A DNA stretch of 64,000 nt from Microbacterium esteraromaticum. Its GTDB lineage: Bacteria; Actinomycetota; Actinomycetes; Actinomycetales; Microbacteriaceae. Shown one piece after another: positions 415 to 48,600 of this stretch. Location: the NCBI RefSeq assembly GCF_900163815.1, contig NZ_FUKO01000023.1, forward strand, positions 62,001 through 126,000, written 5' to 3'. Within the stretch, counting starts at the first letter, position 1. Each line of letters begins with the position of its first letter. A model generated the notes under the pieces. The model saw only the letters and a program-made list of their open reading frames with translations. It was not told where the DNA came from and made no database searches. A program made the position numbers and the translations under genes.

Positions 415-690
415 CTCCTCCGAGGTCGCACCCGACGCGACCCCGACCAAGTGGCGCTTCCTTTCTCGGAACCGGGTCATCGCGGCCACCGCCGCCGCGA
501 CCATCGTGATCGAGAGCGGATGGCGCTCGGGCACGCACAACATCGCAGACCACGCCGCATCTCTCGGACGCGGCCTCGGCACAGATCACCAGCGCTGCCT
601 CAACCGGATGCCACCGCCTGCTCCGCAAGACGACGCACAGGCCCGTCACCACCGCCAACGAAGCCCATGAACTCCGCGGCCCGCTGACAC
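415..690 (+). pseudogene. dprA: Decayed internal fragment of dprA (DNA processing protein A)
   Basis: The frame from 416 reads SSEVAPDATPTKWRFLSRNR, then VIAATAAATIVIESGWRSG and NIADHAASLGRGLGT, the RFxxRNR...E(A/S)GWRSG core of the DprA Rossmann fold that loads RecA on transforming DNA. After Thr at 581-583 the frame breaks: ITSAASTGCHRLLR, the next DprA motif, continues from 585 in another frame, and the usual VPG residues between are missing (a deletion near 584, about 11 bases against the family pattern). No N-terminal part or start is present. It begins exactly where the left repeat ends. Confidence 0.8.
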
Positions 691-826
691 AAGCGCCAGC
701 GCACCGCCCGCACCGGCGGGGCACTCGCCGGTGTCCACCCACCTGCAAAAAGGATGCATTCTCGCTCGACAAGGCAGATTCCTATACCGTGGCAGGTCAC
801 ATATAAACCGTCCAAAGTCCCGTAGT

Positions 827-865
827 GGCTGGTCGGGGTCGGGTCGACCCGACATCGGACCAGCC
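827..865. terminator. Nested inverted repeat downstream of the intracellular GH31 gene
   Basis: A perfect 16-bp palindrome, GTCGGGTCGACCCGAC, lies at 838-853, enclosed by GGCTGGTC (827-834) and GACCAGCC (858-865). It sits about 100 bp past the stop of the minus-strand GH31 gene and could end that transcript; an operator role is also possible. The rest of 691-968 shows nothing recognisable as a gene. Confidence 0.4.
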
Positions 866-968
866 GGGCAGATCCCACGAAAGGTACTCTGCTCACTTAC
901 CAGAGCATCAGCCTCCTCAGATCTGCGGTGGCGGCACCGCTCTCGTACGGATGGAACCGCACCTGGCT

Positions 969-3212
969 TCACCTCAGAGGTGTGAGGATGGGTGCCAGAC
1001 CCTGCCAGGACTCATCTCGGACGAAAACGGGAATGGAAGTCCGCTCGGACACGTCCACCGATACCGCTCGACCGCCAGCAATCTGTTCGCCAGTGCGAGC
1101 CTCGACCCAACAACCAGCGGGCAGGTAGACCGACCACTCGCGAGCGCCCGGCTCGAGTACGGGGGCCACAAGGACATCGGGGCCGAGCATCCACTGGAGC
1201 GGATGCTCCCACACGGCCGGATCGGCCGGGTAATCAAAATACAGCGGTCGCATCAGTGGCGCCGACGACTCAACGGCATACGCGGCCGCGTCGGTCAAAT
1301 ATGGCACGAGACGTTCCCGCAGTTGCACGAGGGCCCGAACATCCCTGATAACCGCGTTGTCTCCCGTCAGCTCCGCGATGTTCCACGGTGTGCGGTCGTT
1401 GGAAGGTGACCGGTGGTGGTTGAACTCGGAATGGTATTGCATGATCGGCACGAAGACACTCGCAGCCATCGCCCGGACATACAGCTCTGCGTCGGGGATC
1501 GGACCGGAGAAGCCCGCGATATCCCACCCCCAGTAGACGATTCCGCAGGAGGCCGCCGAGAGCCCGGCGAGCATCGACCAGCGGAAAGCCTCCCATGTGG
1601 AGTTCTCGTCTCCCGCCCAGAACGCGCCGTGAGCGGGTGAGCCCGTGAATCCGGCGCGGCTGAAAGTCACCGGCGCCTTGTCCGACGATTCGAGAAGCTG
1701 TCCGTAGGCGGCGGCGTAGGCGACGGGGAACCGGTTGTTGGACTGGTCGCCGGACGAACCGTCGAGGTAGACGAGGTCCTCGCCCCACGCGTGCTCGCCG
1801 CCGTCGGTCTTGAAGCCGTCGATACCCACTTCGTCGACGAGGTAGCGCCGCTTCTCGGTCCACCACGCGGCGGCACGCTCGTCGGTGAGGTCGGGCATGA
1901 GCGAGAGGGGGAACCACCAGCCGCGGTTCCGATACGGGCGGAGCGTGCCATCCGGTGCCTTCTCCCGGATGACCACGTCTTCCGCGAGCGCGGCACGTGC
2001 GTCGGCTGCGGCTTGCCCGGTCGGATGCGGGCGGAGCTTGAGCAGTGGGATCTGCCACAGGTGCACGCGCACGTCGTGCTCGTGCAGTGCGTCGACCATG
2101 CCCTTGGGGTCGGGCCACGCACCGCCAGCGGGGAACGTGAAGTCGGCAAGGCGCATCGGACCGCCGTCCTCACGTACGGTGTACTGCGCGTCGCGGAAGA
2201 TCGTGAAGCTCTTCTCGTCGCTCCATGCTTCGATCACGACGTTCCGCACTGGGATGTCGTGCTCGCGATGGAGTGCCATCTGCCGCTCGACTTCGGCCTG
2301 TGTATTCCACTCGTTGCCGCTGGCCCAGAGCCCGAACACCCACTCCGGAAGCACGCGCGGACGCCCTGTCTCTGCGAGGAACGCATCGAGCACAGACGTG
2401 GGGTCGCCCGAGTACAGGGCGAGGGAGAGGGCTTGCGGGTTGCCGGAAGCCGCGTCAACCTCTGCCTCGATCACGAGCCGGTTGGGGTGCCGCTCGCCTA
2501 CGTCGAACCAGACGCGTCGCGAGGTGCGCACATGGAAGCCCCAGCCCCGACCACCAACGACGTGGGCGAACGGCATGGGCAGGTAGGTGCGTCGATGCGC
2601 CCCCTGACTCTTATACTGCTCGAACACGACGGAGTCGAGGCGCGTGCCACGGTGGTCCAGTGCGTCGTAACGCTCACCGAATCCCGTGACGTGCTCCCCC
2701 GGGGCGAGCGGAAGGGCAAACCGTAAGCGATGGATCCGCTCACCGTCGTCGAGAACCTCGACTGTGCCAGCCATGACGGGGACGGCAGTCCCGTCCACCG
2801 CAAGCGCCGCGGGATCCGCGGCGCGCCAGGCGGCGACCCGCGTCTCGAACCAGCGGGTGCGGGAGACACGGTCGGAACCGGCTGCGGCAAAGCGGTAACG
2901 CATGATGCTGCCAGCGGTCGGAGTCTCGAACGCCACCTGCCATCCGCCCGCGGTCCGCGCAGTGCGCGCCTGCGCCGAAGCGAGGTGTCCCCCATCGACA
3001 TCTTGCCCGCGCGACGACCTGACGACGCGCTCGAGCGGCAGGGTCGTCACGTCACCGTCGTCTACCCGAAGCTGGAGCACCACCGCGTCGACGTCGCCGG
3101 AAGTCCTGACACCGAGTCGGAGGGGAGCACCGGCGACAGGTTGGACGGGACTGCGCTGCTCGGTGTCGTCGGAGTACGGGTGCCCGGACCCGGAAGGGCG
3201 GTGACGGATCAT
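969..3212 (-). CDS. Intracellular GH31 alpha-glucosidase-type enzyme
   Basis: 747 residues, no signal peptide, so cytoplasmic. A GH31 N-terminal beta domain contains GFGERYDALDHRG, and a TIM barrel follows; the likely nucleophile is Asp470 in GFKTDGGE and the acid/base Asp535 in FWAGDENST. The start is ATG 3212, which overlaps the TGA of the upstream GH15 gene as ATGA and has GGAG about 8 bases upstream; the frame stays open upstream but inside that gene. It belongs to the same subfamily as the secreted enzyme at 8864 (shared NEWNTQAEV, WSDE and DAQYT blocks), not the KTDFGE alpha-xylosidases. Last gene of the importer operon, so it probably hydrolyses imported alpha-glucan oligosaccharides. 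Exact linkage specificity cannot be read. Confidence 0.85.
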   Translation of the reverse strand: MIRHRPSGSGHPYSDDTEQRSPVQPVAGAPLRLGVRTSGDVDAVVLQLRVDDGDVTTLPLERVVRSSRGQDVDGGHLASAQARTARTAGGWQVAFETPTAGSIMRYRFAAAGSDRVSRTRWFETRVAAWRAADPAALAVDGTAVPVMAGTVEVLDDGERIHRLRFALPLAPGEHVTGFGERYDALDHRGTRLDSVVFEQYKSQGAHRRTYLPMPFAHVVGGRGWGFHVRTSRRVWFDVGERHPNRLVIEAEVDAASGNPQALSLALYSGDPTSVLDAFLAETGRPRVLPEWVFGLWASGNEWNTQAEVERQMALHREHDIPVRNVVIEAWSDEKSFTIFRDAQYTVREDGGPMRLADFTFPAGGAWPDPKGMVDALHEHDVRVHLWQIPLLKLRPHPTGQAAADARAALAEDVVIREKAPDGTLRPYRNRGWWFPLSLMPDLTDERAAAWWTEKRRYLVDEVGIDGFKTDGGEHAWGEDLVYLDGSSGDQSNNRFPVAYAAAYGQLLESSDKAPVTFSRAGFTGSPAHGAFWAGDENSTWEAFRWSMLAGLSAASCGIVYWGWDIAGFSGPIPDAELYVRAMAASVFVPIMQYHSEFNHHRSPSNDRTPWNIAELTGDNAVIRDVRALVQLRERLVPYLTDAAAYAVESSAPLMRPLYFDYPADPAVWEHPLQWMLGPDVLVAPVLEPGAREWSVYLPAGCWVEARTGEQIAGGRAVSVDVSERTSIPVFVRDESWQGLAPILTPLR

Positions 3213-4333
3213 GCTGCCAGCTCCGTTCCATCGACTCCGAGTTCGGTGGCCAGGCGCAGCACCATCGCGTGACTCCACAGCAGAGGCGTCGCGACTGGTC
3301 CCCAACGCTCCAGCCATTCCTCTCGATACTCGGGGGCGAGGAGGTACCCGGCGACCTGTTCCGGCAGCATGCCGGTGTCAGTGGCAGTGCACGCGGCCCA
3401 TTCCAGCAGACGCTGGGCTTCGTCTCGCTCCCCGGCCGCGGCATAGGCCAACCCGAGGAAGCACGACAGGAGTGGCCAGCGGCCGCCGCCGAAGAACGTG
3501 TCGGCGCGGAAGCGGTACACGCCCCCGTCGACCTCCAGCTGCTCCGACACCGCGTGAAGGGTTCCCGCGGCCAGTGCAGAGCTGGCGTCGATCACACCGA
3601 GCGGCGCGATGAGCGCGCTGAGACTGCCGTCCACAGCGTCCGAACCGATCCATTTCACGAGGTGGCCATCGACGACAGCGTCGCGAGTGAGGCGGGCGCG
3701 TACCTCGGCTGCTCCCGCTCGGGCGCGCTCAGCACGCTCACCCGTCACCAGTCCGGACTCCGCCGCTTCGCGCAGGCCCGCTGCGATACAGCCGAGTGTC
3801 GATCCGTGGACGGCTTCGTCATGCTCCTCCCACCAGTCGTAGCATGGGCGCTCCCACGAGCTCAAGAGGTAGTCGACTGCGAGTGCGGCGGCGTCGGCCC
3901 ATCGTGCCGGGTCAATGCCGTGTCGCTCGGAGTGGGTGGCTGCGGCCCACAGCCACGTACCGTAGCCGTCGAGCTGGAAATCCCACCAGTCGTCCAATCC
4001 CAGGGCACCGTCGAACGTGAAGCGAGCTGGCAGCATCTGCTCGTCTGGGAGCGGGGTGCCCGCGTCGGCGGCTTCGACGATGTCGCGGATGCGGTCGGCA
4101 TAGCGGGTGAGGACCATTGCGCACCAGTCGTGGAACGCCGAGGCGGAGGCCACCTCCCCCGCAGCGGAGGCGCTGTCGGCGATGAACGAGCCGTCGCGGA
4201 ACCAGCAGTAGCCACGGTACGCCGAGAACGACGGTGAGGCGGGGTAGGCGCCGTTGGGCTCCTGCAGCGAGGTGATGACGGTGCGAGAGCGGTCGAGGAG
4301 CGCGTCGAGGGCGACGCGGGGTGTGGTGGTCAT
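3209..4333 (-). CDS. GH15 family glucoamylase-like protein, intracellular
   Basis: 374 residues, an alpha/alpha-barrel glucoamylase catalytic domain. Seen: YRGYCWFRDGSF (residues 39-50), the CYDWWEEHDEAVHGST block with the probable general acid Glu169 or Glu170, the MLPEQ motif with the probable general base Glu325, and the C-terminal PLLWSHA typical of GH15. No signal peptide. The start at ATG 4333 (MTTTPRV) is preferred because the longer frame runs back into the binding-protein gene. Overlaps the GH31 gene by 4 bases, so translation is coupled. It should release glucose from non-reducing ends of imported oligosaccharides; trehalose or dextran-type activity is also known in the family. Confidence 0.85.
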   Translation of the reverse strand: MTTTPRVALDALLDRSRTVITSLQEPNGAYPASPSFSAYRGYCWFRDGSFIADSASAAGEVASASAFHDWCAMVLTRYADRIRDIVEAADAGTPLPDEQMLPARFTFDGALGLDDWWDFQLDGYGTWLWAAATHSERHGIDPARWADAAALAVDYLLSSWERPCYDWWEEHDEAVHGSTLGCIAAGLREAAESGLVTGERAERARAGAAEVRARLTRDAVVDGHLVKWIGSDAVDGSLSALIAPLGVIDASSALAAGTLHAVSEQLEVDGGVYRFRADTFFGGGRWPLLSCFLGLAYAAAGERDEAQRLLEWAACTATDTGMLPEQVAGYLLAPEYREEWLERWGPVATPLLWSHAMVLRLATELGVDGTELAA

Positions 4334-4367
4334 GAGTCCGTTCAATCCATTTCGGGGAGAGTCACGA

Positions 4368-4398
4368 TGGCCGGGGGGGAGTGCTCCCGCCCCGGCCA
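4368..4398 (-). terminator. Stem-loop between binding-protein gene and GH15 gene
   Basis: Arms 4368-4380 (TGGCCGGGGGGGA) and 4385-4398 (TCCCGCCCCGGCCA) form a GC-rich stem of about 13 bp with one bulge, between the stop of the solute-binding protein gene and the GH15 start. Such stems commonly protect the upstream binding-protein message or partly terminate, giving more binding protein than downstream enzymes; that role is inferred. Confidence 0.6.
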
Positions 4399-4409
4399 GT
4401 AAGCGGATG

Positions 4410-5654
4410 TCAGCCGAGGAGAGGCGCGATGCGCTTCTCGGCGTCGGCGAGGGCATCTTCGACGGTCTTGCGGCCCGCGGCCGCTTCAGTCAGCTCCTCA
4501 GTGACGATGTCCTGCATCTGGGCCTGGCCGTCGCCGATGGAAGGAGCGAGTGCCACCTCGTCGAGCGAGTCGAACACGGCCTGACGGTTGGTCGGCGGAG
4601 TGATGTCGAGGTAGGCGGACAGTGCAGCCTCGTCAGCGATCGGTGGGAGCTCCCATCCGGCAGTCAGACGCGTGTCGACAGTGGTCTTAGAGCTCGTCAG
4701 GAACTCGGCGAACTTCGTGGCTGCGTCCTTGTGCTTGGTGCCCGCTGAGACACCGACGGCGTTGGAGAACATCGCACTCGCGTGCTGCGCGTCACCGGGT
4801 TCAACGGCGATATCCCACGTGATACCGGCGTCAGCGAGACCGCCGAACATCCAGATGCCGCTGTGCCACATCGCAAGCTTGCCATCGGCGAAAAGCCCAC
4901 TGTCAAAGTCAGGTGTTCCAGCCCCCTGCTCGGCGGTTGGCATCGTCGTGCCGCTCTTGCTTACCAGCCACTCGGCGGCCGCGATTCCCTCAGGGCTGTT
5001 GAACCCGAGCGAGCCGTCCGCCTTGAGGAACTCTCCACCGGCCTGCGCGACGGCCTTGTAGAACTCGTGATACGAGATCGGCTGGTAATCACCCCACACC
5101 CCCGCGCCTACGTCGGTGAGCTTCTCGGCGGCGGCTTTCTCATCGGCCCAGGTCCAGTCGGCGGTGGGGTAGTCGAGACCGGCCGCATCGAACAGGTTGG
5201 AGTTGTAGAACAGGACGACGTTGGAGAACGAGCTCGGGAGCGCATACTGTGTGCCATCGGTGGCGTACGCCTCCGCGAGCGACGCCTGATACACGCTCGC
5301 ATCCACACCCTCAAGTTGCGCGAGCACACCGCTCTGCTGGTAGGCGGCGTAGTTCGCGAATTCGATATCGAACACGTCAGCGACCGTCCCACCGGCAAGG
5401 TCGGTCTGCAGTGCCGTGAAGTAGTCGGCGTAGGGCAGCGTTTTCACCTCAACCGTGATGCCCTTGTTCTCCTTCTCGAAGGCATCGACGATCGCCTCGA
5501 GATTCTTCTCATTACCGCCGGCCGAGATGAAATTGGAGTACGTGATCGTCACGTCATCCTCCACAGTGGGGTTGGTGGGTCCGGCGCAACCTGCGAGGGC
5601 GAGCCCGGTAACGGCGAAGATGCCGATCCCGGTGAGGGGTGCTGTGCGATTCAT
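4410..5654 (-). CDS. Carbohydrate ABC transporter solute-binding lipoprotein
   Basis: 414 residues, type 1 extracellular binding protein. A signal peptide ends in the lipobox LAGC with Cys23, so it is lipid-anchored outside the membrane. SNFISAGGNEKNLEAIVDAFE and the LFYNSNLFDAAGLDYP segment are typical of the oligosaccharide-binding MalE/UgpB group. The gene follows two permease genes and precedes two glycosidase genes, so the ligand is probably an alpha-glucan oligosaccharide; a cyclic tetraglucose or panose is suggested by analogy with the Listeria pathway, not shown here. Confidence 0.9.
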   Translation of the reverse strand: MNRTAPLTGIGIFAVTGLALAGCAGPTNPTVEDDVTITYSNFISAGGNEKNLEAIVDAFEKENKGITVEVKTLPYADYFTALQTDLAGGTVADVFDIEFANYAAYQQSGVLAQLEGVDASVYQASLAEAYATDGTQYALPSSFSNVVLFYNSNLFDAAGLDYPTADWTWADEKAAAEKLTDVGAGVWGDYQPISYHEFYKAVAQAGGEFLKADGSLGFNSPEGIAAAEWLVSKSGTTMPTAEQGAGTPDFDSGLFADGKLAMWHSGIWMFGGLADAGITWDIAVEPGDAQHASAMFSNAVGVSAGTKHKDAATKFAEFLTSSKTTVDTRLTAGWELPPIADEAALSAYLDITPPTNRQAVFDSLDEVALAPSIGDGQAQMQDIVTEELTEAAAGRKTVEDALADAEKRIAPLLG

Positions 5655-5699
5655 GGGATATCTCCTTCGATACGGTGTGCGAGGTGAGGTAGTGCGGGT

Positions 5700-6515
5700 T
5701 TACTTGATGCCGCTGGAGGCCACGCCTTGGATGACGTAGCGCTGAGCGAACAGATAGATGGCGAGCATGGGGAGGATACTGACGACGGAGCCCGCCATCA
5801 TCACATCCCACTGCGTCGTGTACTGCCCCTGGAGCCCGGCCAGCGCCAGCGGCAGCGTCTTGAGCTCAGCCGAACGCAGGATGATGAGCGGCCAGAGGAA
5901 ACCGTTCCAGCTGTTCATGAACGAGAACACCGCGAGTGTCGCGAGAGCCGGCCCCACGAGCGGAAGGACGACCGTACCGAAGATACGGAAGTGGCCGGCG
6001 CCGTCGAGCGTGGCCGCCTCGTCGAGCTCGCGCGGCACGCCGTTCATGGCCTGGCGGAGCAGGAACACGCCGAACGCGCTAGCGACCCCCGGAAGCAGGA
6101 CGCCGAGATACGTGTCGACGAGACCGAGATCGCGCATCTGAACGAACAGCGGCACGATGAGCACCTGAATGGGGATCATCATCGTCGCGAGGTACACCGC
6201 GAACACTGCTCCGCGGCCGCGAAACGGGAGACGGCTGAAAGCATAGGCGGCCATCGAGCTGGTAATCAGCTGGAAAACCGCGGTAGCTGCGGCGAGCCCC
6301 AGCGAGTTTACGATTATCCGAGCAAACGGTAGCTCGGAAAACAGCGTCTGGTAGGCCGAGAATGACGGCTGATCAGGGATGAGCTGAGGGGTCGCGTCGA
6401 GTCCGGCACCAGACGAGAATGACGTGGACAGCGTCCACAAGAACGGGAAGAACATCACGATGGCGCCGAGGATCAGAACCGTGGTGAGCAGAGCGCGCTG
6501 GGTCTTCTCACGCAT
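5700..6515 (-). CDS. Carbohydrate ABC transporter permease, MalG type
   Basis: 271 residues with six predicted membrane segments, starting MREKTQRALLTTVLIL. The cytoplasmic EAA loop is visible as LDEAATLDGAGHFRIFGTVVLPL, the contact with the ATPase. The start overlaps the end of the partner permease by 8 bases. No ATPase is encoded in the cluster, so a shared MsiK-type ATPase elsewhere is needed. Confidence 0.9.
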   Translation of the reverse strand: MREKTQRALLTTVLILGAIVMFFPFLWTLSTSFSSGAGLDATPQLIPDQPSFSAYQTLFSELPFARIIVNSLGLAAATAVFQLITSSMAAYAFSRLPFRGRGAVFAVYLATMMIPIQVLIVPLFVQMRDLGLVDTYLGVLLPGVASAFGVFLLRQAMNGVPRELDEAATLDGAGHFRIFGTVVLPLVGPALATLAVFSFMNSWNGFLWPLIILRSAELKTLPLALAGLQGQYTTQWDVMMAGSVVSILPMLAIYLFAQRYVIQGVASSGIK

Positions 6516-7455
6516 AGGTCACCCACCTCTTCTGACCGACGATCTGGACTACCGTGACACCGAGGACCAGGACAAACAGCATCCACGACAGGGCTGACGC
6601 CTCCCCGGCGGCGCCGTAGCGGAAGGTCAGATCGTAAATCTGCTGCACGACAACCGTGCTCGACCCCGCCGGTCCGCCGCCGGTCATGGCGTAGACCTGG
6701 TCGAAGACCTGGAAGCCGTTGATGAGGGAGATCACGACGACGAAGAACGTCGAGGGCGACAGCAGCGGGAGGGTCACGTTGAACAGGCGCCGCCACGGCC
6801 CCGCACCGTCGACCTTCGCTGCCTCGTACATCTCTTGCGGGATGGACTGGAGACCCGCGAGCAGGATGATCATAACGAAGCCGAGGTCCTTCCACGCTGA
6901 GGCGAGGATGATCGATGGCATCGACCATGCGGGGTCCGCCCACCACCCGGGTCCGTCGATGCCGAACACTGCGAGGGTCGCGTTGACGATTCCGACTGAC
7001 GGGTTGAGCAGCCAGCGCCATACGAGGGCAACCACGATCCAGCTCGTCACGACGGGGAGGAAATACACGCCCCGCAGAATGTTGCGACCGCGCAGCCGCA
7101 CGTTGAGAGCAAGCGCGAGGGCGACTCCGCCGACGTACACGAGGGGCAGATAGCCGACGAGGTAGTAGAGGGTGTTGAGGAACGCCCGCTGCGTCGTTGG
7201 ATCCTGCACGAGGTGCACGTAGTTGTCGAAGCCCACCCATTTCATAGGCGCGAGCAGGTTCCACTCGTGCAGGCTCGTCCACAGCGCGCCGAACATGGGG
7301 TAGACCGTGAAGAGCGCGAGCGGGACTGCACTCGGCAGCAGGAAGGCGAGCACAGTGAGGGCATAGCGCATGCGACGTCGGGGGCGGCGGACGGGCGGGG
7401 CCTGGGCTGGCTCGCGCCCGACGTCGGTCGGCAGGGGCCGGACCGCGAGGGTCAT
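6508..7455 (-). CDS. Carbohydrate ABC transporter permease, MalF type
   Basis: 315 residues; a basic N-terminal tail (RRPRRRMRYALTV) is followed by six membrane helices and an EAA loop reading YEAAKVDGAGPWRRLFNVTLP. ATG 7455 overlaps the TGA of the ROK gene by 4 bases, so regulator and importer are translationally coupled and the importer is probably transcribed from the ROK promoter. Forms the channel with the MalG-type subunit at 5700. Confidence 0.9.
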   Translation of the reverse strand: MTLAVRPLPTDVGREPAQAPPVRRPRRRMRYALTVLAFLLPSAVPLALFTVYPMFGALWTSLHEWNLLAPMKWVGFDNYVHLVQDPTTQRAFLNTLYYLVGYLPLVYVGGVALALALNVRLRGRNILRGVYFLPVVTSWIVVALVWRWLLNPSVGIVNATLAVFGIDGPGWWADPAWSMPSIILASAWKDLGFVMIILLAGLQSIPQEMYEAAKVDGAGPWRRLFNVTLPLLSPSTFFVVVISLINGFQVFDQVYAMTGGGPAGSSTVVVQQIYDLTFRYGAAGEASALSWMLFVLVLGVTVVQIVGQKRWVTYA

Positions 7456-8681
7456 TTCGCGCCGCCGCTCTCACCGGGAGCGACCGAACGCGCCACGCCG
7501 AGTCGCTCGCGCACGAGGCGTCCCTGCTCACCGGAGCGTCCCTGGTCGTCGAACGGTGTCGAGAGCACGAGCGAGGCCGCTCCCTGCGCCCAGCGGTCAT
7601 CTTGCCAGGTCTCGACCGCGACCGGAACGGCGCGGTTGCGCGGGATGAGACCGGCACGGAACGCCGGCTCGAACCCGAACGACCAGTGCCGCCACGACTC
7701 GACGCCTTCGCCAAGGATGATCACGATCTCCGGATCGAGGACGTTCACGACGCCGGCGAGCACCCGACCAAGCAGGTGCCCCGCGTGCGAGAAGAGCTGC
7801 TGGGCACCGCAGTCGCCCGCATCCGCGAGGGAGCGGAGCACCGCGATACCGGCGTCGCGACCGATGACGCGCTGTTCGCGCGCGCGATGGACGAGGGCCT
7901 CCTGACTCACCAGGGCTTCGAGACAGCCGTGACCTCCGCACTGACAGAGGGGACCGTCCTCCTCCACCGGCACGTGCCCGATCTCGCCCGCGCCGCCGCT
8001 TCGTCCCAGCAGCACACGACCGTCCGCCACCAGCCCGGCACCGACACCCGTGCCGATCGTCAGGACCAGGACGTTCTCGTGGCCGCGGGCCTGGCCGTGC
8101 AGGGCCTCGGCGATCGCAAGCGCGTTGACGTTGTTCTCGACGAGCACAGGGAGGTCGAGCTCACGGCGGAGGGCTTCCCCCAGGGGCACGCGCTGCCAGC
8201 CGAGCTGCGTCGAGTCGACCGTGCCGACCGCCTGCTCCTCGACGTTGCCGGGCACCCCGACGCCGACGCCGAGGAGGGGCGCACCGTCTCCCCCGCCGAT
8301 GAAGGCGCGGAGCCTCTCAGCCAGGCGCGTGGTGGCGGTGCCCGAGGCGGCGTCGAAGGGCTCGGTCGCGGAGCGGACGACGGTTCCGTCGATCCCGACC
8401 TCCACGACGGTGATGTGGTCGGCGACAACCTTGACGCCGATCGCTCGCCCGGCGTCGGCCACGAGTCCGAGCAGTCGCGCGGGGCGTCCGCCGCTGGAAG
8501 GACTGTGGTCGAGCTCGACGAGCAGTCCGTCAGCGATCAGCTGACGCGTGTGCTGAGTGATGAGGGCGGGCGAGACATCAAGCTCCCTCGCGAGGTCGGC
8601 ACGCGAGGTGGGGCCGCTGCCGCCGATGAAGGCGAGCACGGCCGATCGGGTGACATCGGCGCGGGCGGAAGAAGACGGCAC
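7452..8681 (-). CDS. ROK family transcriptional regulator of the glucan island
   Basis: 409 residues. The N-terminal winged helix-turn-helix reads SRADLARELDVSPALITQHT; the ROK sugar-sensing domain has GVGVPGNVEE, the DIVVS-like ENNVNALAIAE part and the zinc-binding CQCGGHGCLE. Start GTG 8681 is placed by AAAGGGG six bases upstream. First gene of the importer-glycosidase operon and divergent from the secreted enzymes. Twin inverted sites at both gene starts suggest it represses both directions until an inducing sugar binds. Confidence 0.9.
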   Translation of the reverse strand: MPSSSARADVTRSAVLAFIGGSGPTSRADLARELDVSPALITQHTRQLIADGLLVELDHSPSSGGRPARLLGLVADAGRAIGVKVVADHITVVEVGIDGTVVRSATEPFDAASGTATTRLAERLRAFIGGGDGAPLLGVGVGVPGNVEEQAVGTVDSTQLGWQRVPLGEALRRELDLPVLVENNVNALAIAEALHGQARGHENVLVLTIGTGVGAGLVADGRVLLGRSGGAGEIGHVPVEEDGPLCQCGGHGCLEALVSQEALVHRAREQRVIGRDAGIAVLRSLADAGDCGAQQLFSHAGHLLGRVLAGVVNVLDPEIVIILGEGVESWRHWSFGFEPAFRAGLIPRNRAVPVAVETWQDDRWAQGAASLVLSTPFDDQGRSGEQGRLVRERLGVARSVAPGESGGAK

Positions 8682-8682
8682 G

Positions 8683-8707
8683 TGAACCCCTTTGTTTAGG
8701 TCTGAAT
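8683..8707 (-). promoter_or_regulatory. Probable ROK operator in the leader of the ROK/importer operon
   Basis: Read on the minus strand this 25-base segment matches 8838-8862 on the plus strand at 22 of 25 positions, in inverted orientation. The core TTTAGGTCTGAA is close to the dyad TTCAG-N2-CTGAA. It ends in the ribosome-binding site of the ROK gene. Operator function is inferred from the duplication and position. Confidence 0.65.
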
Positions 8708-8837
8708 GAACGTTAGGACACGACGCGCGCGGACGTCAACTGGAACTTCACCGACGAGCCCGAAAGCCACGCACCAAATATCGGTTTCATGGAAAGGGTT
8801 GATCTTGGACTCATGGATAGTCCACACTCTCCACTAT

Positions 8838-8862
8838 ATTCAGACCTGAACAAAGAGGTTCC
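8838..8862 (+). promoter_or_regulatory. Probable ROK operator in the leader of the secreted GH31 gene
   Basis: Contains TTCAGACCTGAA, a TTCAG-N2-CTGAA dyad, and runs into AGAGG, the ribosome-binding site five bases before ATG 8864. A possible -10 hexamer TATATT (8835-8840) touches its left edge. Binding of a repressor here would block both transcription start and translation. Confidence 0.65.
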
Positions 8863-8863
8863 C

Positions 8864-11737
8864 ATGTCTTCTGCTGCACGGACTCTTCCCTCCGCGGGTC
8901 CCCGCCGCGCGATCGTGCTCGCCGCGGGTGTCGTGATGGCCCTCGTCATCGCCCTTCTCGCAGCGACGCCGGCACACGCGAACACGCTGGACGGGGTGTG
9001 GCACAACCCCTACGGCAATGATGAGCTGTACGCCACACAGCCCACCGAACGATCGCCGCGCGACCCTATGGCGGGTGAGAACGTCACCGTCCGCGCCACC
9101 ACCTGGCCCATCGCCTCGGGGCAGTCGGTCTGGGTCACATGGAGCGTCAACGGCGTCGCCCAGACTCCGCGCGGCGCGAGCTGGGACTACAACTCCGGCA
9201 ACAACACCTACTGGAAGATCGATCTCGGCTCCTTCGCCCGCGGCGATGACGTCGAGTACACGGTGCACGCCGACGTCAACGGCGGCGTGCAGCGCGACAT
9301 CGGCCCGTTCTCGTTCGCGACCACCTCGTGGAGTACCGTCACCGATGTCACGAACGTGATCGACAACGGCACCTCGGTCGACATCGTGACAGGAGACAGC
9401 GCCGGCGACTTCACCCCGAAGGTGCGCTTCGCCTTCCCGCGCCTGGACGGCTACGACGTGCAGATCGCACCGAACGGATCAGGCCTGAACCTCAGCGGTC
9501 TCACGAGCTACAGTGTCACGAACGGCGCATCGCAGGTGACCATCGCCACGAGCCAGCTCGTGCTCAAGATCGACAAGAGCCCGTACCGCCTGTCGGTCTA
9601 CAAGGGCGACGGAACCACGCTGATCACCCGCCAGTACGACCCAGCGCAGTTCCGCAACATCGGATGGGCGAGCGATGGCAGCTCCACCGTGACCAAGATC
9701 GAGGACCACTTCCTGAGCCCCGCCGGCGAGCGATTCGAGGGCTTCGGCGAGCGCTACGACCGGCTCGACCACCGCGGCACCGACGTGCACAACTACGTTT
9801 ACAACCAGTACCAGGATCAGGGCACCTCCCGTCGCACCTACTACTCGGTGCCGTACTTCGCCAACTCCGCCGGCTACGGCGTGCACGTGCCGAGCACCCG
9901 GTACGCGATCTTCAACCTGGCGACCTACCGCTCCGACATGGCCGGCTTCACCGTCGACACCGGCGGCGCCCTGAACTCGACCATGACCTACCAGTTCTTC
10001 ACCGGCGACCAGACGGCCATGCTCGACGACCTCACCGCCGAGACCGGCCGACCACTCCTCCCGCCCAAGTGGGCCTTCGGTCTCTGGGGCTCGGCGAACG
10101 AGTGGAACACGCAGGCCGAGGTCGACACGTGGCTGAACCAGGTGGACTCTTCCGGCATCCCGCACAGCGCGCTCGTCCTCGAGCAATGGAGCGACGAGGC
10201 CACGTTCTACCTCTGGAAAGACGCGCAGTACACGCCCACCTCGGGGAGCGGCTCCCTCGACTACGCCGACCTCACCTTCCCTTCGGGCGGCGCATGGAGC
10301 AACCCGAAGCAGATGATCCAGGACGCCCACGACCAGAACATCAAGGTCATCCTGTGGCAGATCCCGGTGCTCAAGGAGAACTTCACCTCCAACCCCTCCA
10401 CCGCCCCGCAGCAGCACCTCAACGACAAGGCCTACGCTGCGGCGCAGAACTTCCTCGTGAAGGACGGCGACGGCCAGCCGTACCGCATCCCGACCGGCCA
10501 GTGGTTCGGTGACAGCACGGTGCCCGACTTCACGAGCACAGCCGCCACCGACTGGTGGATGAGCAAACGCGCATACCTGCTCGACGACCTCGGCGTCGAC
10601 GGCTTCAAGACCGACGGCAGCGAGGCCCTGTTCGGACGCGACCTCCAGGCGGCCGACGGCCGCCGAGGCGACGAGATGCACAACGCCTATCCGAACGAGT
10701 ACACCCGCGCCTACAACGACTTCGTGCAGCAGAAGACCGGCGGCGACGGCACGATTTTCAGCCGCGCCGGCACCTCCGGGGGCCAGAGCCAGTCCATCTT
10801 CTGGGCGGGCGACCAGTCGTCGACGTTCGGCGCCTTCCAGGAGGCGGTGCGGGCGGGTCAGAGCGCCGGGCAGTCGGGCGTTCCATTCTGGGCGTGGGAC
10901 CTCGCCGGCTTCACCGGCTCGTTCCCCAGCTCCGAGCTCTACCTCCGCTCCGCGTCGCAGGCGACCTTCTCGCCGATCATGCAGTACCACTCCGAGAAAG
11001 CCGACCCCACGCCCTCCGAGGCGCGCACGCCCTGGAACGTGCAGGCGCGCACCGGCGACACGAGCGTCGTGCCGACGTTCACCAAGTTCGCGAACGTCCG
11101 GATGAACCTCGTGCCCTACCTCTACACCGAGGCCGACGACAGCGCCTCGACGGGCGTGCCGATGATGCGGGCGATGAGCCTCGCATTCCCCGGCGACGCG
11201 ACGGCGGCGACCTACGACCAGCAGTACCTGTTCGGCTCGCAGCTGCTGGTCGCCCCGATCACGACCCAGGGGCAGACGGTCAAGGACGTCTACCTGCCCT
11301 CGGGCGAGTGGTACGACTTCTGGAACGGCGGACGCGCGATCGGCAACGGCGTGAAGCAGTACTACGCCGGGAAGGACACGATCCCCGTCTACGCCCGGGC
11401 CGGAGCGGTCATTCCGCTCAACCTGAACGACGCGTACCAGCTGGGCGGCACGATCGGCAACGACGTCGAGACCTACGACAACCTCGTGTTCCGGATCTAC
11501 CCGTTGGCGTCGAGCACATACGACTACTTCGAGGACTCGGCCGACGCGCACCGCACCATCTCGGTCACGTCCGACCGCGTGGCGCGCACCGTATCGGTCT
11601 CCGCTCCGGCGCTGACCACCGCGGCGACCTACCAGGTCTCGGGTACGAAGCCCACGGGTGTCTCGGTGGCCGGTTCGGCGCTCACCGAGGTGAGCTCGGT
11701 GTCGGCGCTTGCCTCGGCGAGCACCGGCTGGTTCTAG
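8864..11737 (+). CDS. Secreted GH31 enzyme, 6-alpha-glucosyltransferase (CtsZ)-like, cut short by a stop codon
   Basis: 957 residues up to TAG 11735-11737. Start ATG 8864 is chosen because it has AGAGG five bases upstream and opens a signal peptide (cleavage after AHA, about residue 39); an upstream in-frame ATG at 8789 would bury it. Order: signal, Fn3-like N domain, GH31 beta domain with GFGERYDRLDHRG, TIM barrel with nucleophile Asp584 (GFKTDGSE) and acid/base Asp650 (FWAGDQSS), C-terminal beta domains. It resembles the family that includes the secreted 6-alpha-glucosyltransferases of cycloalternan makers; simple alpha-glucosidase is the alternative. The stop falls inside STGWF-stop-DSVQQLTY, where the frame continues into a carbohydrate-binding module. 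Confidence 0.75.
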   Translation: MSSAARTLPSAGPRRAIVLAAGVVMALVIALLAATPAHANTLDGVWHNPYGNDELYATQPTERSPRDPMAGENVTVRATTWPIASGQSVWVTWSVNGVAQTPRGASWDYNSGNNTYWKIDLGSFARGDDVEYTVHADVNGGVQRDIGPFSFATTSWSTVTDVTNVIDNGTSVDIVTGDSAGDFTPKVRFAFPRLDGYDVQIAPNGSGLNLSGLTSYSVTNGASQVTIATSQLVLKIDKSPYRLSVYKGDGTTLITRQYDPAQFRNIGWASDGSSTVTKIEDHFLSPAGERFEGFGERYDRLDHRGTDVHNYVYNQYQDQGTSRRTYYSVPYFANSAGYGVHVPSTRYAIFNLATYRSDMAGFTVDTGGALNSTMTYQFFTGDQTAMLDDLTAETGRPLLPPKWAFGLWGSANEWNTQAEVDTWLNQVDSSGIPHSALVLEQWSDEATFYLWKDAQYTPTSGSGSLDYADLTFPSGGAWSNPKQMIQDAHDQNIKVILWQIPVLKENFTSNPSTAPQQHLNDKAYAAAQNFLVKDGDGQPYRIPTGQWFGDSTVPDFTSTAATDWWMSKRAYLLDDLGVDGFKTDGSEALFGRDLQAADGRRGDEMHNAYPNEYTRAYNDFVQQKTGGDGTIFSRAGTSGGQSQSIFWAGDQSSTFGAFQEAVRAGQSAGQSGVPFWAWDLAGFTGSFPSSELYLRSASQATFSPIMQYHSEKADPTPSEARTPWNVQARTGDTSVVPTFTKFANVRMNLVPYLYTEADDSASTGVPMMRAMSLAFPGDATAATYDQQYLFGSQLLVAPITTQGQTVKDVYLPSGEWYDFWNGGRAIGNGVKQYYAGKDTIPVYARAGAVIPLNLNDAYQLGGTIGNDVETYDNLVFRIYPLASSTYDYFEDSADAHRTISVTSDRVARTVSVSAPALTTAATYQVSGTKPTGVSVAGSALTEVSSVSALASASTGWF

Positions 11738-12199
11738 GATTCGGTGCAGCAGCTGACCTACGTGAAGGTGGGAGCGAGCACCTCCGCCCGTACGATCGCC
11801 CTGAGCGGGGTGGACAAGGCTGCCTACGAGGCCGAGTTCGCCGCACAGACCGGCGTGAGCACCAACACCGACCACCCCGGCTACACCGGGTCTGGCTTCG
11901 TGGACGGGTTCGCCTCGAGTGGCGACGCCGTGCAGTTTGACGTGTGGGTCGAGGCGAACGCGACGCACCAGCTTCGCTTCCGCTACGGCAACGGCGCGTC
12001 CGCCTCGGCCGTGCGCACCGTCCGCGTCGATGGAACGTCCATCGATACGGTCACCCTGCCCTCGACCGGCTCCTGGAGCACCTGGGGCACGGCGTCGATC
12101 AGCGCGAGCCTCACTCCCGGCCGCCATACCGTCCGCATCGAGTATGCGAGCAGCGACACGGGCGGCATCAACCTCGACAACCTCGTGCTCGCACGCTGA
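11738..12199 (+). pseudogene. CBM35/CBM6-type carbohydrate-binding module severed from the GH31 gene
   Basis: In the same frame as the gene ending at 11737, this stretch encodes about 153 residues: a linker, then a beta-sandwich module with YEAEFA, TGSGFVDGF, QFDVWV, HTVRIEY and INLDNLVL, typical of CBM35/CBM6. One base separates TAG from TAC (Tyr), which would restore GWFYDSVQQLTY and a 1,111-residue protein. A GTG at 11744 has no convincing ribosome-binding site, so separate translation is unlikely. Either a recent loss of glucan binding, readthrough, or a sequencing error. Confidence 0.8.
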
Positions 12200-12223
12200 G
12201 CCGGAATCGTGGAGAGACCCCTT

Positions 12224-15124
12224 ATGAATACTGTGACAACGCGTCGCCGCGTCGCGACGCTCGCTATCGCGTCGATTGTGGCGGCCTTCCTGACCACGCT
12301 GAATGGGTGGATAGATGCTGAGTCCGCGACAGCAGCGCCATTGGGTGTGCAGCGTGCCCAGTTCACCTCCGGCTCGAGTTACCTCGTGGTCGAGGTGCTC
12401 GATGACGACCTGGTGCACTTTGAGGTGGCCGGAAGCGGCACGTCGCCGGGAACGTCGACGGCGCTGTTCACGACGCCGCAGATCGCCAGGACGAACTACC
12501 CTGGGCCCGAGACCTATTCGCGCAGCGGCGGCACGATCCAGACGGCGGGGCTACGGCTCGAGGTCAACACGTCGACGCTGTGCGTGACCGCGACCGACAT
12601 CACACGCACGCCGAACCTCGTGCTGCAGACGACCTGCCCGGTCGACCTCACGCAGGCGTGGAAGGGCCTGAACATCACGAAGTCGTCGATGGAGAACGCC
12701 TACGGTCTCGGCCAGCAGTTCTTCACGGGTGCGAGCGCCGACGGTGACTGGGTGGGGCGCGTCCGCTTCCCCGGCGGCACGTACGGCAACGCGATGGTCT
12801 ACGACGCCGAGAACGGCCCGGTGGGAAACACGCAGATCCCGGTGCTGTTCGCCCTGGGTGACGACAACGCCAACTACGGCCTGTTCGTCGACCAGCTCTA
12901 TAAGCAGGAGTGGAACCTGACAGGCGATCCGTGGACGATGCGCACGTGGGGCGACCAGGTGCGGTGGTACCTGATGTCGGGGCCGGACCTGCCGGATCTG
13001 CGCGAGGACTACATGGAGCTCACCGGCACGCCGCCGGTGCCCCCGAAGAAGGCGTTCGGGCTGTGGGTGTCGGAGTTCGGCTACGACGACTGGTCAGAGC
13101 TCGACGACACCATCTCCGGTCTGCGCGCAGCCGACTTCCCTGTGGACGGCGCCATGCTCGACGTCCAGTGGTTCGGGGGCGTCGACGCCGACTCCGACGA
13201 CACCCGCATGGGCACCCTCGACTGGGACACGACGAACTTCCCGAACCCGGCGTCGAAGATCGCCGCGCTCAAGGCGGACGGCGTCGGCATCATCCCGATC
13301 GAGGAGTCGTACGTCGGCAAGAACCTGCCGGAGCACGCCGACATGGCCGCCGACGGATACCTCGTGCGCTCTGGGTGCTCCACCTGCACACCGGCCTACC
13401 TCACGGGCAACCCGTGGTGGGGCAAGGGCGGGATGATCGACTGGACGCAGCCCGCCGCCGGCGCCACCTGGCACGACGAACAGCGCCAGCACCTCTTAGA
13501 CGAGGGCGTGACCGGGCACTGGCTCGACCTTGGCGAGCCCGAGATGTACGACACGAACGACTGGACCGCAGGAGTGATCCCCGGCAAGCACGCGCACGCC
13601 GACTACCACAACGCCTACAACCTCCTGTGGGCAAAGAGCATCGCCGACGGCTACGACCGCAATGACGAGGACGCCCGCCCGTTCCTGCTCTCGCGGGCTG
13701 CAGCCGGCGGCATCCAGCGATACGGCACGGCCATGTGGTCGGCCGACATCGGCTCGACGATGAAGGCCCTCGCCTCGCAGCAAAACACCCAGATGCACAT
13801 GTCGATGTCGGGCATCGACTACTACGGCTCCGATGTCGGAGGCTTCCGCCGCGAGATGCTCGACGTCGACGCCGACGAACTCTACACTCAGTGGTTCGCA
13901 GACAGCGCCTGGTTCGACACTCCCCTGCGTCCACACACCGAGAACCTCTGCAACTGCCTGGAGACCACGCCCGACGCGATCGGCGACGTCGACAGCAACC
14001 GTGCGAACCTCATGCGCCGCTACGAGAACGCGCCCTACACGTACTCACTCGCGCACCGCGCGAACCGATACGGCGAACCACTGGCACCGCCGCTCGTGTA
14101 CTACTACCAGAACGATGACAACGTGCGGGAAATGGGTCACCAGAAGATGCTGGGCCGCGATCTGATGGTGGCGATCGTGGCGGGATCCGGCGAGCGGGAG
14201 CGCGACGTGTACCTGCCGGCGGGCGACTGGATTGACATCCACACGAACGAGCGCATCTCGAGCACGGGTCAGTGGATCTCCGATGTGCCACTGTGGCGCA
14301 ATGGAGTGTTCACCCTCCCCGCCTATGCCCGAGCGGGTGCGATCATCCCGCAGGCGTACGTCGATGCCGAGACGAAGGACATCACGGGTCTACGCTCGGA
14401 CTCAACCGTGCACAACGACCAGATCACGACCGTCTACGCCGACGGCAACGCGTCCAGCTTCACGCTGTACGAGGACGACGGCGCCAGCACGGCCTACCAG
14501 AGCGGCGCGGTGCGCACGACGGAGATCAGCCAGTCGATGACCGGGAGCGTCGCCACCGTCACGGTGGGTGCGGCCTCGGGCACGTACACCGGCGCCCCGT
14601 CATCACGCCCGACGGTCGTCAAGCTCGTCACCGACGACACACAGGCCGCCTCGGTGACTCTCAACGGCAGCACCCTCACCGAGCACGCCAACAAAGCCGC
14701 CTTCGACGCCGCGAGCAGCGGCTGGTACAACGCGGGCGGCAACATCGTGATCGCCAAGGCGGCCAGCAGGTCGGCCGGCACCGCGAAGGCCTTCGCCTTC
14801 ACGTTGGGCGAAGACCCCGTATGGGCAACCTTCGCGTGCGAGTCCGCGACGACCACCGTCGGCCAGTCGGTCTACGTCGTGGGCAACATCCCGCAACTGG
14901 GCAACTGGTCGCCGGCAAGCGCAATCAAGCTCAATCCGAGTGCATATCCCACCTGGACCGGCGAGATCGAGAATCTTCCGCCCTCGAGCGGGATCGAGTG
15001 GAAGTGCATCAAACGGCAAGAGGCAGGCAATCCGAATACGGCCGATGCATGGGAGCCGGGAGGCAACAACGTGCTGAACACTCCACCATCGGGTTCCGCC
15101 GGGATCACGACAGGCGCGTTCTAG
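12224..15124 (+). CDS. Secreted GH31 enzyme with CBM20, 3-alpha-isomaltosyltransferase (CtsY/cycloalternan-forming)-like
   Basis: 966 residues. ATG 12224 follows GGAGAG by seven bases and opens a signal peptide (cleavage near residue 37). Blocks: N-terminal beta domain, TIM barrel with LDVQWFGG, IPIEESYVGKNLPEH, nucleophile Asp435 in GHWLDLGEPEMYD, acid/base Asp508 in MWSADIGS, then GSDVGGFRRE, C-terminal beta domains, and a starch-binding CBM20 at about 866-966 (VYVVGNIPQLGNW). The ESY, LDLGEPEMYD and GIDYYGSDVGGF blocks match my memory of cycloalternan-forming transferases, a group with activity unlike plain glucosidases. It lies 24 bp after the CBM35 fragment and is probably in the same transcript. 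Transferase rather than hydrolase activity is an inference. Confidence 0.72.
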   Translation: MNTVTTRRRVATLAIASIVAAFLTTLNGWIDAESATAAPLGVQRAQFTSGSSYLVVEVLDDDLVHFEVAGSGTSPGTSTALFTTPQIARTNYPGPETYSRSGGTIQTAGLRLEVNTSTLCVTATDITRTPNLVLQTTCPVDLTQAWKGLNITKSSMENAYGLGQQFFTGASADGDWVGRVRFPGGTYGNAMVYDAENGPVGNTQIPVLFALGDDNANYGLFVDQLYKQEWNLTGDPWTMRTWGDQVRWYLMSGPDLPDLREDYMELTGTPPVPPKKAFGLWVSEFGYDDWSELDDTISGLRAADFPVDGAMLDVQWFGGVDADSDDTRMGTLDWDTTNFPNPASKIAALKADGVGIIPIEESYVGKNLPEHADMAADGYLVRSGCSTCTPAYLTGNPWWGKGGMIDWTQPAAGATWHDEQRQHLLDEGVTGHWLDLGEPEMYDTNDWTAGVIPGKHAHADYHNAYNLLWAKSIADGYDRNDEDARPFLLSRAAAGGIQRYGTAMWSADIGSTMKALASQQNTQMHMSMSGIDYYGSDVGGFRREMLDVDADELYTQWFADSAWFDTPLRPHTENLCNCLETTPDAIGDVDSNRANLMRRYENAPYTYSLAHRANRYGEPLAPPLVYYYQNDDNVREMGHQKMLGRDLMVAIVAGSGERERDVYLPAGDWIDIHTNERISSTGQWISDVPLWRNGVFTLPAYARAGAIIPQAYVDAETKDITGLRSDSTVHNDQITTVYADGNASSFTLYEDDGASTAYQSGAVRTTEISQSMTGSVATVTVGAASGTYTGAPSSRPTVVKLVTDDTQAASVTLNGSTLTEHANKAAFDAASSGWYNAGGNIVIAKAASRSAGTAKAFAFTLGEDPVWATFACESATTTVGQSVYVVGNIPQLGNWSPASAIKLNPSAYPTWTGEIENLPPSSGIEWKCIKRQEAGNPNTADAWEPGGNNVLNTPPSGSAGITTGAF

Positions 15125-15293
15125 ATTCTGCTCTGTATGCCGTTGAGGACGATAGTGACGACTATGAGGTCTGCGGCATCGTCGTGTCGCGCGGCAGGCT
15201 GGCAGGGCTGTTGGTTGATTTTTGAACGAACAGTCAACACCTGTGATTCTGATGGAGAAGACAGGGACTGTGCTCGATATCTCTCGTAGGAGA
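15125..15293. other. Non-coding right end of the island
   Basis: 169 bp with no supported gene. It holds a small hairpin CTCTC-gtag-GAGAG (15281-15294) whose right arm overlaps the first base of the right repeat, and a loose GTTGA/TCAAC inverted pair near 15215-15238. No attachment-site-like duplication other than the 330-bp repeat was seen. Confidence 0.5.
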
Positions 15294-15429
15294 GGTTCCG
15301 GTTCCCGGCTACAGCGCGGCGCCCGTGCTGCCGGTCACCGAGCTCCTCGCGGAGTCGGCGGCGGAGTCGCATTCTGCGGAGCCGCACCCGGGCGTGCCGC
15401 ATCCGGGTGAACGGGGCAGCCGCGGCTGA
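15294..15429 (+). pseudogene. Orphan 3' end of the hypothetical gene seen at 2-220
   Basis: Encodes VPVPGYSAAPVLPVTELLAE and a tail ending SRG before TGA 15427-15429, matching the C-terminus of the window's first gene but lacking any upstream part; 5' of it is island DNA. The tail has diverged in its PHPGE units. Confidence 0.8.
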
Positions 15430-15435
15430 TCGCAC

Positions 15436-15466
15436 GAGCGCTCGCTCCCTCCCGGGGCGGGCGTTC
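15436..15466. terminator. Hairpin between convergent 3' ends (right copy)
   Basis: Counterpart of 227-257. The base that differs in the arm becomes a G-U pair and the other change lies in the loop, so the stem is kept. It stands between the orphan tail and the stop of the carboxypeptidase gene at 15472. Confidence 0.55.
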
Positions 15467-15471
15467 TCGCG

Positions 15472-36052: not shown

Positions 36053-37087
36053 TCAGCCTGCAAACGCGCGCAGGTCGTCTCGCAGCATCATCTGCATCAG
36101 GGCATCCGGTTTGCCGTCTGCCGTGCGCAGCCGCACCCAGCCGCTCCCGGCGTCTTCGACCGTCGGCGTGCCCAGCAGGTCCGAGATTGCGGTGCCATCC
36201 GGCAGGGTTCCCTCTGCGGCCGCCTTCTTGACTGAGGCGATGGTCGCGTCTGGGTCGTCTGTGCGGATGCACAGCGTCTGCGCCGCCGCGTCGCCATCGC
36301 TGAACGGACCCACGCCGACACCCACATCGGAACCGGTGGAGGCCGAGGTCGCCGACAGTACTGCGGCGCTCAACACATCGCCGAGGCATGCCGCGATGCC
36401 GGTGTAGTGCTCGGCGAGAGACGTGCCGTCCATCGATGCCCACTGCTCGACCGTCGTACGCGTTGTGCCGCTGATCGAGGTATCGGCGCCGAGCCATGCC
36501 ACGTTCAACCGGGCGCCGAGTTGCGCGGGGAACTCGTCGCCGGCGAGATCGAGTTCGCCGTCTGCCCGCCGCACGAGCAGTGTGCCATCGCCGAGATCCG
36601 AGCGCTCGCCCGCGGCACCTTCGAACACGGATGCCGGGTCCGCGGCGCCGGTGAAGCGCGACGCCTGGTCGGCCCCGTTGCTGATGGTGATCGCTGTCGC
36701 ACCCGGCGTTCCGGGGGCAGGAAGCATGCCGGCCAGATCATCTGCCACGACGGCGAATACATCCATGCCGAGCAGTGCGCTGGAGCGGAACGTCGGCGTG
36801 GTGCTCAGTTCGCCCATCCAGTCCAGCAGCGACGCGGCGGCGGGGCTGCTCAGATCGCTGAAATAGAAGAGCGTCTTCGCCGCGTCGGATGCCGGGGTCG
36901 CAGCGAGCGCCGCGGCCAGCGAGGTGTCGGCACCCTCTTCACCCGTCGTCTCACCGGCGGTCTGGTCTGTCGGGGCCGACGGCGCAGAGGTCGGTTCCGG
37001 TTCGGTCGGGCTGCATCCGGTCAGTGCGACGACCGCGAGCAAGGGCACACCAAGAAGAGCTGTCTGTCTGAGCATGCCTTTCACCAT
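36053..37087 (-). CDS. Hypothetical lipoprotein
   Basis: 344 residues from ATG 37087 (or 340 from 37075). A signal peptide ends in LTGC (Cys25), followed by a Thr/Glu/Pro-rich linker and a globular domain with SLAAALAATPASDAAKTLFY and LRTADGKPDALMQMM. I recognise no known domain. Probably anchored on the outer face of the membrane. Confidence 0.75.
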   Translation of the reverse strand: MVKGMLRQTALLGVPLLAVVALTGCSPTEPEPTSAPSAPTDQTAGETTGEEGADTSLAAALAATPASDAAKTLFYFSDLSSPAAASLLDWMGELSTTPTFRSSALLGMDVFAVVADDLAGMLPAPGTPGATAITISNGADQASRFTGAADPASVFEGAAGERSDLGDGTLLVRRADGELDLAGDEFPAQLGARLNVAWLGADTSISGTTRTTVEQWASMDGTSLAEHYTGIAACLGDVLSAAVLSATSASTGSDVGVGVGPFSDGDAAAQTLCIRTDDPDATIASVKKAAAEGTLPDGTAISDLLGTPTVEDAGSGWVRLRTADGKPDALMQMMLRDDLRAFAG

Positions 37088-37155
37088 AACCAGACGAATG
37101 GCGGAACCGACCGAAGCGCACGGCGCCGGCCACCCATCCGCTCGGCGATGGCGAG

Positions 37156-43361: not shown

Positions 43362-43427
43362 GGTGCTCTCTTTTCGCGAGACGGATGCTGAGGATTCTGG
43401 GTCGGTGCAGACGTGCAGACAGAGTCG

Positions 43428-46673: not shown

Positions 46674-46678
46674 CGCCA

Positions 46679-48531: not shown

Positions 48532-48565
48532 GTCCAGGTCCTCCTCGACCGCGTGGGACGTATGC

Positions 48566-48592: not shown

Positions 48593-48600
48593 GGTTGCTG

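Follow-up and report, generated by a model that had tools for sequence, protein, structure and literature searches.

The making, import and breakdown of the cyclic tetrasaccharide cycloalternan form a pathway that has already been described, as have its forming enzyme, its binding protein and the use of a GH15 enzyme in the breakdown. One solved entry of the Listeria protein Lmo2446 bears the name cycloalternan-forming enzyme. The name of the Trueperella degrading enzyme belongs to entry 5I0G in the accessible text of PMC9061262. Entry 5Z3A is given as an isomaltose glucohydrolase (GH15) from Kribbella flavida in the accessible part of PMC12446779, whose reference list cites for it a paper on the catabolism of cyclobis-(1-6)-alpha-nigerosyl, the same ring. 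Here we describe a locus of this kind in Microbacterium esteraromaticum, within a stretch of 64,000 nucleotides (the window) that covers positions 62001-126000 of contig C48 in a draft assembly of 3.37 Mb and 50 contigs. An earlier reading of the letters alone (the original prediction) had proposed a cycloalternan pathway at this place, and this proposal holds up: the secreted GH31 enzyme encoded from 8864, the binding protein, the intracellular GH31 enzyme encoded from 969 and the GH15 enzyme each have a solved protein of the pathway as best match. We put at roughly 0.86 the probability that the locus is a horizontally placed 14-kb island for making, importing and degrading cycloalternan, in which the making step is probably impaired by an in-frame TAG. 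The nearest named relatives of the locus are Microbacterium strains.

The gene order that had been proposed is borne out by domains and coordinates. On the minus strand, from 8681 down to 969, lie genes for a ROK-family protein, two ATP-binding cassette (ABC) permeases, a binding lipoprotein, a GH15 enzyme and a GH31 enzyme. Divergent from this operon, on the plus strand, two GH31 genes start at 8864 and 12224, and the signal peptides of their products were judged by eye. The protein from 8864 (8864-11737, +) has Lmo2446 as its best solved relative (E about 2.6e-296, the next other enzyme following at 1e-139), is 46% identical over 946 aa to the product of the Listeria Lmo2446 gene, and carries the Lmo2446-like_N domain. 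In a tree of 33 GH31 proteins its type falls into a single clade with Lmo2446 (support 94, not starred). Best match, domain and clade thus all point to a secreted cycloalternan-forming enzyme of the CtsY/Lmo2446 type. The putative catalytic aspartates are invariant in both secreted enzymes, over alignments of 23 and 21 sequences. Grouping with plain alpha-glucosidases or xylosidases, which had been named as grounds for giving up the pathway, is not seen for 8864, as it is nearest to Lmo2446 by a wide margin and shares its clade. Both secreted enzymes stand apart from the two YicI-type rows of the tree, which holds no characterised plain alpha-glucosidase; by score, 8864 is far from the solved plain alpha-glucosidases and 12224 is near none of them.

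The second secreted protein (12224-15124, +) combines a GH31 domain with a C-terminal CBM20, a carbohydrate-binding module (CBM). Its best-scoring solved relatives, at E 4e-60 and weaker, are other GH31 enzymes, namely 6jr6, presumably the dextranase FjDex31A, and 4b9y, a 4-alpha-glucosyltransferase. Its identity to three Listeria GH31 proteins, among them Lmo2444, which is the partner of Lmo2446, is about 26% in each case, and its type forms a clade of its own in the GH31 tree. The original prediction had called 8864 CtsZ-like and had ascribed the block pattern of cycloalternan-forming enzymes to 12224; on these comparisons it had the two secreted enzymes swapped. Because of its linkage to the forming enzyme, we consider 12224 a candidate 6-alpha-glucosyltransferase (CtsZ). 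CtsZ of Arthrobacter globiformis reportedly has 965 aa, about the length of 12224, and is said to be linked to ctsY. In all 39 actinobacterial loci found with 8864 a gene of the 12224 type lies directly behind the forming-enzyme gene, and in 37 of the 39 the six import and breakdown genes are at least partly present. The two exceptions are L021, which is cut by the end of the locus, and L024, whose module lies on another contig if it comes from the same genome as L160 and L161. Two further loci matched by the 8864 search (L043 and L044) hold distant GH31 genes of Bacteroidota. When genomes were searched for the 12224 type (E up to 1e-60, with scoring of the two best candidates in each genome), it was found at full length in 8 of 295 Microbacterium genomes and in 6 of 394 genomes of the class, exactly those with the forming enzyme. 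A ninth genome of the genus (G253) has only the last part of it.

The intracellular GH31 enzyme (969-3317, -; the true start is probably at 3212) carries an AIMA-like_N domain and matches 5x3i (E 2.5e-250) and 5f7s (E 4.9e-230), with matches to these two proteins at 7e-229 or better and others at 8e-128. We take 5x3i to be the Kribbella isomaltosidase and 5f7s to be the Trueperella degrading enzyme; entry 5I0G stands beside 5f7s among the matches, with the same length and a nearly equal score. The assignment is that of an intracellular GH31 enzyme of the 1,3-alpha-isomaltosidase type, which cuts 1,3 bonds. At E 1e-5 the GH15 protein (3209-4456, -) has five matches, which are versions of a single protein of 405 aa, with 5z3a at E 2e-115. 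Two of the five are named isomaltose glucohydrolase, which points to an enzyme that splits isomaltose. A GH15 in place of a GH13 had been put forward as a variation on the known scheme, but this is already described in Kribbella flavida, as far as the accessible part of PMC12446779 goes. The lipoprotein (4410-5654, -) is of the Lmo0181 type (5f7v, 293 bits, the next best 76), as in a cycloalternan-type importer, and is accompanied by a MalG/UgpE-like permease (5700-6515, -) and a MalF/UgpA-like permease (6508-7455, -).

The pathway would run as follows (Lmo0181-type import included). Outside the cell, the 12224 enzyme would move glucosyl units of maltodextrin to position 6 of the non-reducing end, which leaves an isomaltosyl end. 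The 8864 enzyme would then move isomaltosyl groups to position 3 and close the ring of four glucoses, a reaction known for the family. The lipoprotein and the two permeases could import the ring. Inside, the 969 enzyme would cut the 1,3 bonds to yield isomaltose and the GH15 enzyme would split isomaltose to glucose.

Regulation is most likely exerted by the ROK-family repressor (7452-8681, -), which has a winged-helix domain and, judging from the position of the sites, would repress both operons through two operators. The palindrome TTYAGNNCTRAAYRAA occurs at 8691-8710 in the leader of the ROK operon, where it matches on both strands, and at 8839-8854 (+) in the leader of the 8864 gene. Within the window the pattern has just these three matches, which overlap and fall at two places, with none expected by chance. 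The whole 3.37-Mb genome adds no further match and has none for the pattern read backwards. Of 81 loci with a ROK match, 18 carry a looser motif no more than 250 bases away from the ROK gene, loci without the making genes among them; in all, the compared loci hold 23 sites of this kind over 1.78 million bases. The operator pair and the strictly paired enzymes offer handles for finding and naming further such loci.

As sequenced, the forming-enzyme gene ends at an in-frame TAG (11735-11737), behind which the frame stays open to 12199 (11738-12199, +) through the remainder of the C-terminal beta domain and then a CBM35/CBM6 domain. Of the claim that both secreted GH31 enzymes carry CBMs, the part on 12224 stands with its CBM20, and the part on 8864 does not hold for the sequence as it is, since the TAG precedes its module. 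At the position of the TAG there is a tryptophan in 39/39 relatives and a stop in none. Behind the TAG, comparison with two close relatives gives a ratio of nonsynonymous to synonymous substitution rates (dN/dS) of 0.25 in both cases; in the same region it is 0.23 between those two relatives and 0.18 in another intact pair, and in front of the TAG it is 0.07-0.08. The region is therefore as constrained as in intact relatives, and either the stop is recent or it is an assembly error. In a structure model of the protein read through the TAG (mean predicted local distance difference test score, pLDDT, 63), the C-terminal part scores well, with block means of 89-94 for residues 901-990. Residue 958, the site of the TAG, falls within a strand (955-959), and two further strands (964-969 and 976-981) and the CBM lie behind it. 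A recent nonsense codon would shorten the forming enzyme, probably impairing the making of the ring and leaving its import and breakdown intact.

The forming enzyme is also broken in other loci. Among 46 loci with making genes (makers) it is broken in four: in the window by the stop, and in L129, L037 and L038 by matches that change frame. The frame-changing matches span 12603-15936 in L129, 10001-13197 in L037 and 10001-13230 in L038, and these genes are either broken or wrongly assembled. As L129 is a Microbacterium, the assemblies of two of the eight makers in the genus sample show a broken forming enzyme. The 12224-type partner is broken in none of the 46 (Fisher p 0.12 against the forming enzyme). 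The six other genes, counted over loci with and without making genes, show 8 breaks in 503, a rough count of single stops that may be natural gene ends. Against all other genes together (8/549), the breaks of the forming enzyme give p 0.01. Each of the four may be an assembly error.

A 330-bp direct repeat (92%) frames the locus, and the limits given in the original prediction, 415-15293, take in precisely the stretch from one copy to the other. The repeat covers the place where an ABC exporter gene and a gene for a DacB-like D-Ala-D-Ala carboxypeptidase end convergently. In its left copy (85-414) the exporter gene reaches its 3' end (stop at 220, +), together with the last codons of a truncated DacB-like copy (-). 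In the right copy (15294-15623) it is the exporter end that is truncated, whereas the DacB-like gene of the right flank (15472-17025, -), whose 3' end lies there, is intact. In 11 of 29 Microbacterium DacB loci the exporter gene lies next to DacB and converges on it, the aligned ends being 63-419 bases apart; from its gene order this is the unoccupied arrangement. In 17 of the other DacB loci the fetched flank showed no exporter, and in one a 31% match was taken as a paralogue. Compared with makers L032 and L004, the window is alike only from about 979 to 15124 (87-91%), and the fetched flanks differ. At the left edge of the island lies a fragment of a DprA gene (415-669, +; Pfam DNA_processg_A, E 2e-14). 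No integrase was found among the scanned island proteins, the flanks being scanned only in part.

Import and breakdown genes often occur without the making pair, in loci that we call takers. Among the 295 Microbacterium genomes, 8 have the forming enzyme (at least 79% identity) and 22 have only a match of 39-43%. The six-gene import and breakdown module is complete at 20 of the 22 taker places in the genus; of the remaining two, one sits on a 4-kb contig with two genes and the other shows only part of the breakdown GH31. In the class sample 25 of 394 genomes match, 6 with the forming enzyme (all of which also have a match of the breakdown type) and 19 without. Among 18 newly fetched class takers, 17 have the six genes and one (L138) is without the GH15; the remaining taker of the 19, G224, belongs to the genus sample as well. 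Two of the class makers have the making pair apart from the six-gene module. In L138 (genome G1003) the match to the forming-enzyme query reads through two TGA codons. In another phylum, a plasmid of Deinococcus sp. KNUC1210 (L165) carries ROK, permeases, binding protein, GH15 and GH31 in the same order, and a making pair is not annotated in its 26-kb stretch. PF22681 was tried as a phylum-wide marker of the forming enzyme and was rejected: it matched 4 of 396 genomes, three of them weakly (one of these three below the curated cut-off) and in loci whose GH31 fits the breakdown enzyme better. The whole forming-enzyme protein was used as query instead.

On a locus tree (FastTree) of 83 loci, 45 makers and 38 takers, from which four loci with fewer than four genes had been dropped, the maker/taker state changes at least 8 times, compared with 27.7 in shuffles. 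Maker loci were partly gathered through the forming enzyme itself, and the proportions on this tree are not frequencies. Maker L126 is the sister (98%) of taker L112 (genome G253). L112 keeps the leader of the forming enzyme with a slightly changed operator, traces of the first codons, and about the last 159 residues of the partner. These remnants are separated by an IS21-type IstB gene and a second gene, which has a Mu-type transposase domain (L176, 5303-9992). Elsewhere on the tree, maker L127 forms a group with takers L119 and L121, and L121 keeps a fossil of partner residues 751-818. Judging from such remnants, two losses of making genes have left fossils; many other takers may never have had these genes.

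Several points weigh against reading the locus as a cycloalternan island with an impaired making step. Between the 12224 protein and Lmo2444, the Listeria GH31 encoded beside Lmo2446, identity is just 25.7%, and other GH31 proteins of Listeria are equally near; a clade of the two is neither found nor rejected, the approximately unbiased (AU) test giving p 0.147. Structure models are poor overall, with a mean pLDDT of 63 for 8864 and 58 for 12224, the latter built with 22 relatives. Only 18 of the 81 ROK leaders have even the looser motif, and most distant relatives are without the exact one. As sequenced, the 8864 protein would be without its CBM and two strands, and the strain may be unable to make the sugar; the TAG may also be an assembly error. 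One alternative for the whole island is that it takes up and breaks down branched or alternating alpha-glucans of other organisms (alternan, isomaltosyl-1,3 oligosaccharides), with secreted enzymes that trim polymers and make no ring. CBM20 and CBM35 domains bind polymers, 6jr6 and 4b9y are the solved relatives that 12224 matches best, and since takers without the secreted pair are common, the importer must have a use of its own. However, 8864 shares a clade with Lmo2446, which in one entry bears the name cycloalternan-forming enzyme, the match of the binding protein to Lmo0181 is much closer than that to maltodextrin binders, and the full-length secreted pair occurs together or not at all; we regard this explanation as improbable. 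It is rather unlikely, too, that 12224 is an ordinary extracellular alpha-glucosidase or a 4-alpha-glucosyltransferase and that isomaltosyl ends come from another source. The low identity to the Listeria partner and the presence of a 4-alpha-glucosyltransferase among the solved relatives would fit this, but the pairing with the forming enzyme in 39/39 loci and in 8/8 and 6/6 genomes speaks against it, as do the reported length of the Arthrobacter globiformis CtsZ and its linkage to ctsY.

The TAG admits two further explanations. A sequencing or assembly error, with the strain an ordinary maker, is less probable than a real stop and still deserves serious consideration: dN/dS behind the TAG resembles that of intact pairs, the assembly is a 50-contig draft, and the three other breaks of the forming enzyme also come from single assemblies. 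Yet a recent, real nonsense change would look alike, and consensus errors are rare in assemblies. The breaks are moreover concentrated in the forming enzyme, with 4/46 against 0/46 in the partner (p 0.12) and against 8/549 in the other genes (p 0.01, the 8 not having been checked singly). Readthrough of the TAG, which would give a short and a long forming enzyme, is consistent with a frame that is open and constrained behind the codon. TAG is a normal stop here, however, with the 12224 gene itself ending in TAG at its conserved C-terminus, and no relative has a stop at the position, which makes readthrough very improbable. ARAGORN found no tRNA in the window, with the left flank outside the scan; no genome-wide search for a suppressor tRNA was made. 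A real and recent stop in an otherwise complete cycloalternan island remains our preferred reading.

The locus can be seen as a compact model of a 'privatised' carbon source, in which secreted enzymes turn starch into a ring that few others can use. The original prediction spoke of a sugar that only the producing cell can use. This is not what the genus sample suggests, in which more genomes have the import and breakdown module without the forming enzyme than have the whole system; as takers outnumber makers, the sugar may not be private. Tentatively, and at somewhat less than even odds, we propose that cycloalternan is a public good in actinobacterial communities, that lineages repeatedly lose the making pair and keep import and breakdown, that the forming enzyme often goes first, and that the strain of the window has been caught at the start of this process. 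The nearest Microbacterium makers and takers would on this proposal have a common repressor and operator. Alternatively, the food of takers may be isomaltosyl-1,3 sugars derived from alternan rather than the rings of their neighbours. The maker-taker pattern with its fossils, the operator pair and the breaks of the forming enzyme were not met among the literature matches listed, which is no proof of their absence. With such maker-taker switches and fossils, ordinary soil strains offer a direct test of whether a private sugar remains private.

Elsewhere in the window, 40459-50085 encodes a mannitol dehydrogenase, an FGGY carbohydrate kinase and a solute-binding protein, likely a polyol operon. 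A 529-aa frame at 36053-37642 has no Pfam match at E 0.001 and is possibly a meaningless antisense frame.

Compared with known systems, the island shares with Listeria monocytogenes (the Lmo2444-2446 region and the Lmo0181 operon) the forming enzyme (46%), the binding protein, the permeases, the ROK protein and a GH31 of the breakdown type. Unlike the single island described here, Listeria has the making and importing genes in two places. Its operon ends in an annotated alpha-glucosidase, whereas a GH15 is found here, and its partner GH31 is of a type distant from 12224. Arthrobacter globiformis A19 reportedly has linked ctsY and ctsZ with transporter genes in ctsUVWXYZ, its CtsZ being similar in length to 12224. 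The cyclobis-(1-6)-alpha-nigerosyl enzymes of Kribbella flavida are the closest solved relatives of the 969 and GH15 proteins, and Kribbella loci L019 and L028 have the same eight genes as here; within the accessible part of the source, no difference was found between the Kribbella flavida enzymes and those here. The cyclic maltosyl-maltose system of Arthrobacter globiformis M6, as described in the accessible part of PMC7676653, follows the same make-import-degrade logic with a cyclic tetrasaccharide, but relies on GH13 enzymes, other linkages and a single secreted enzyme.

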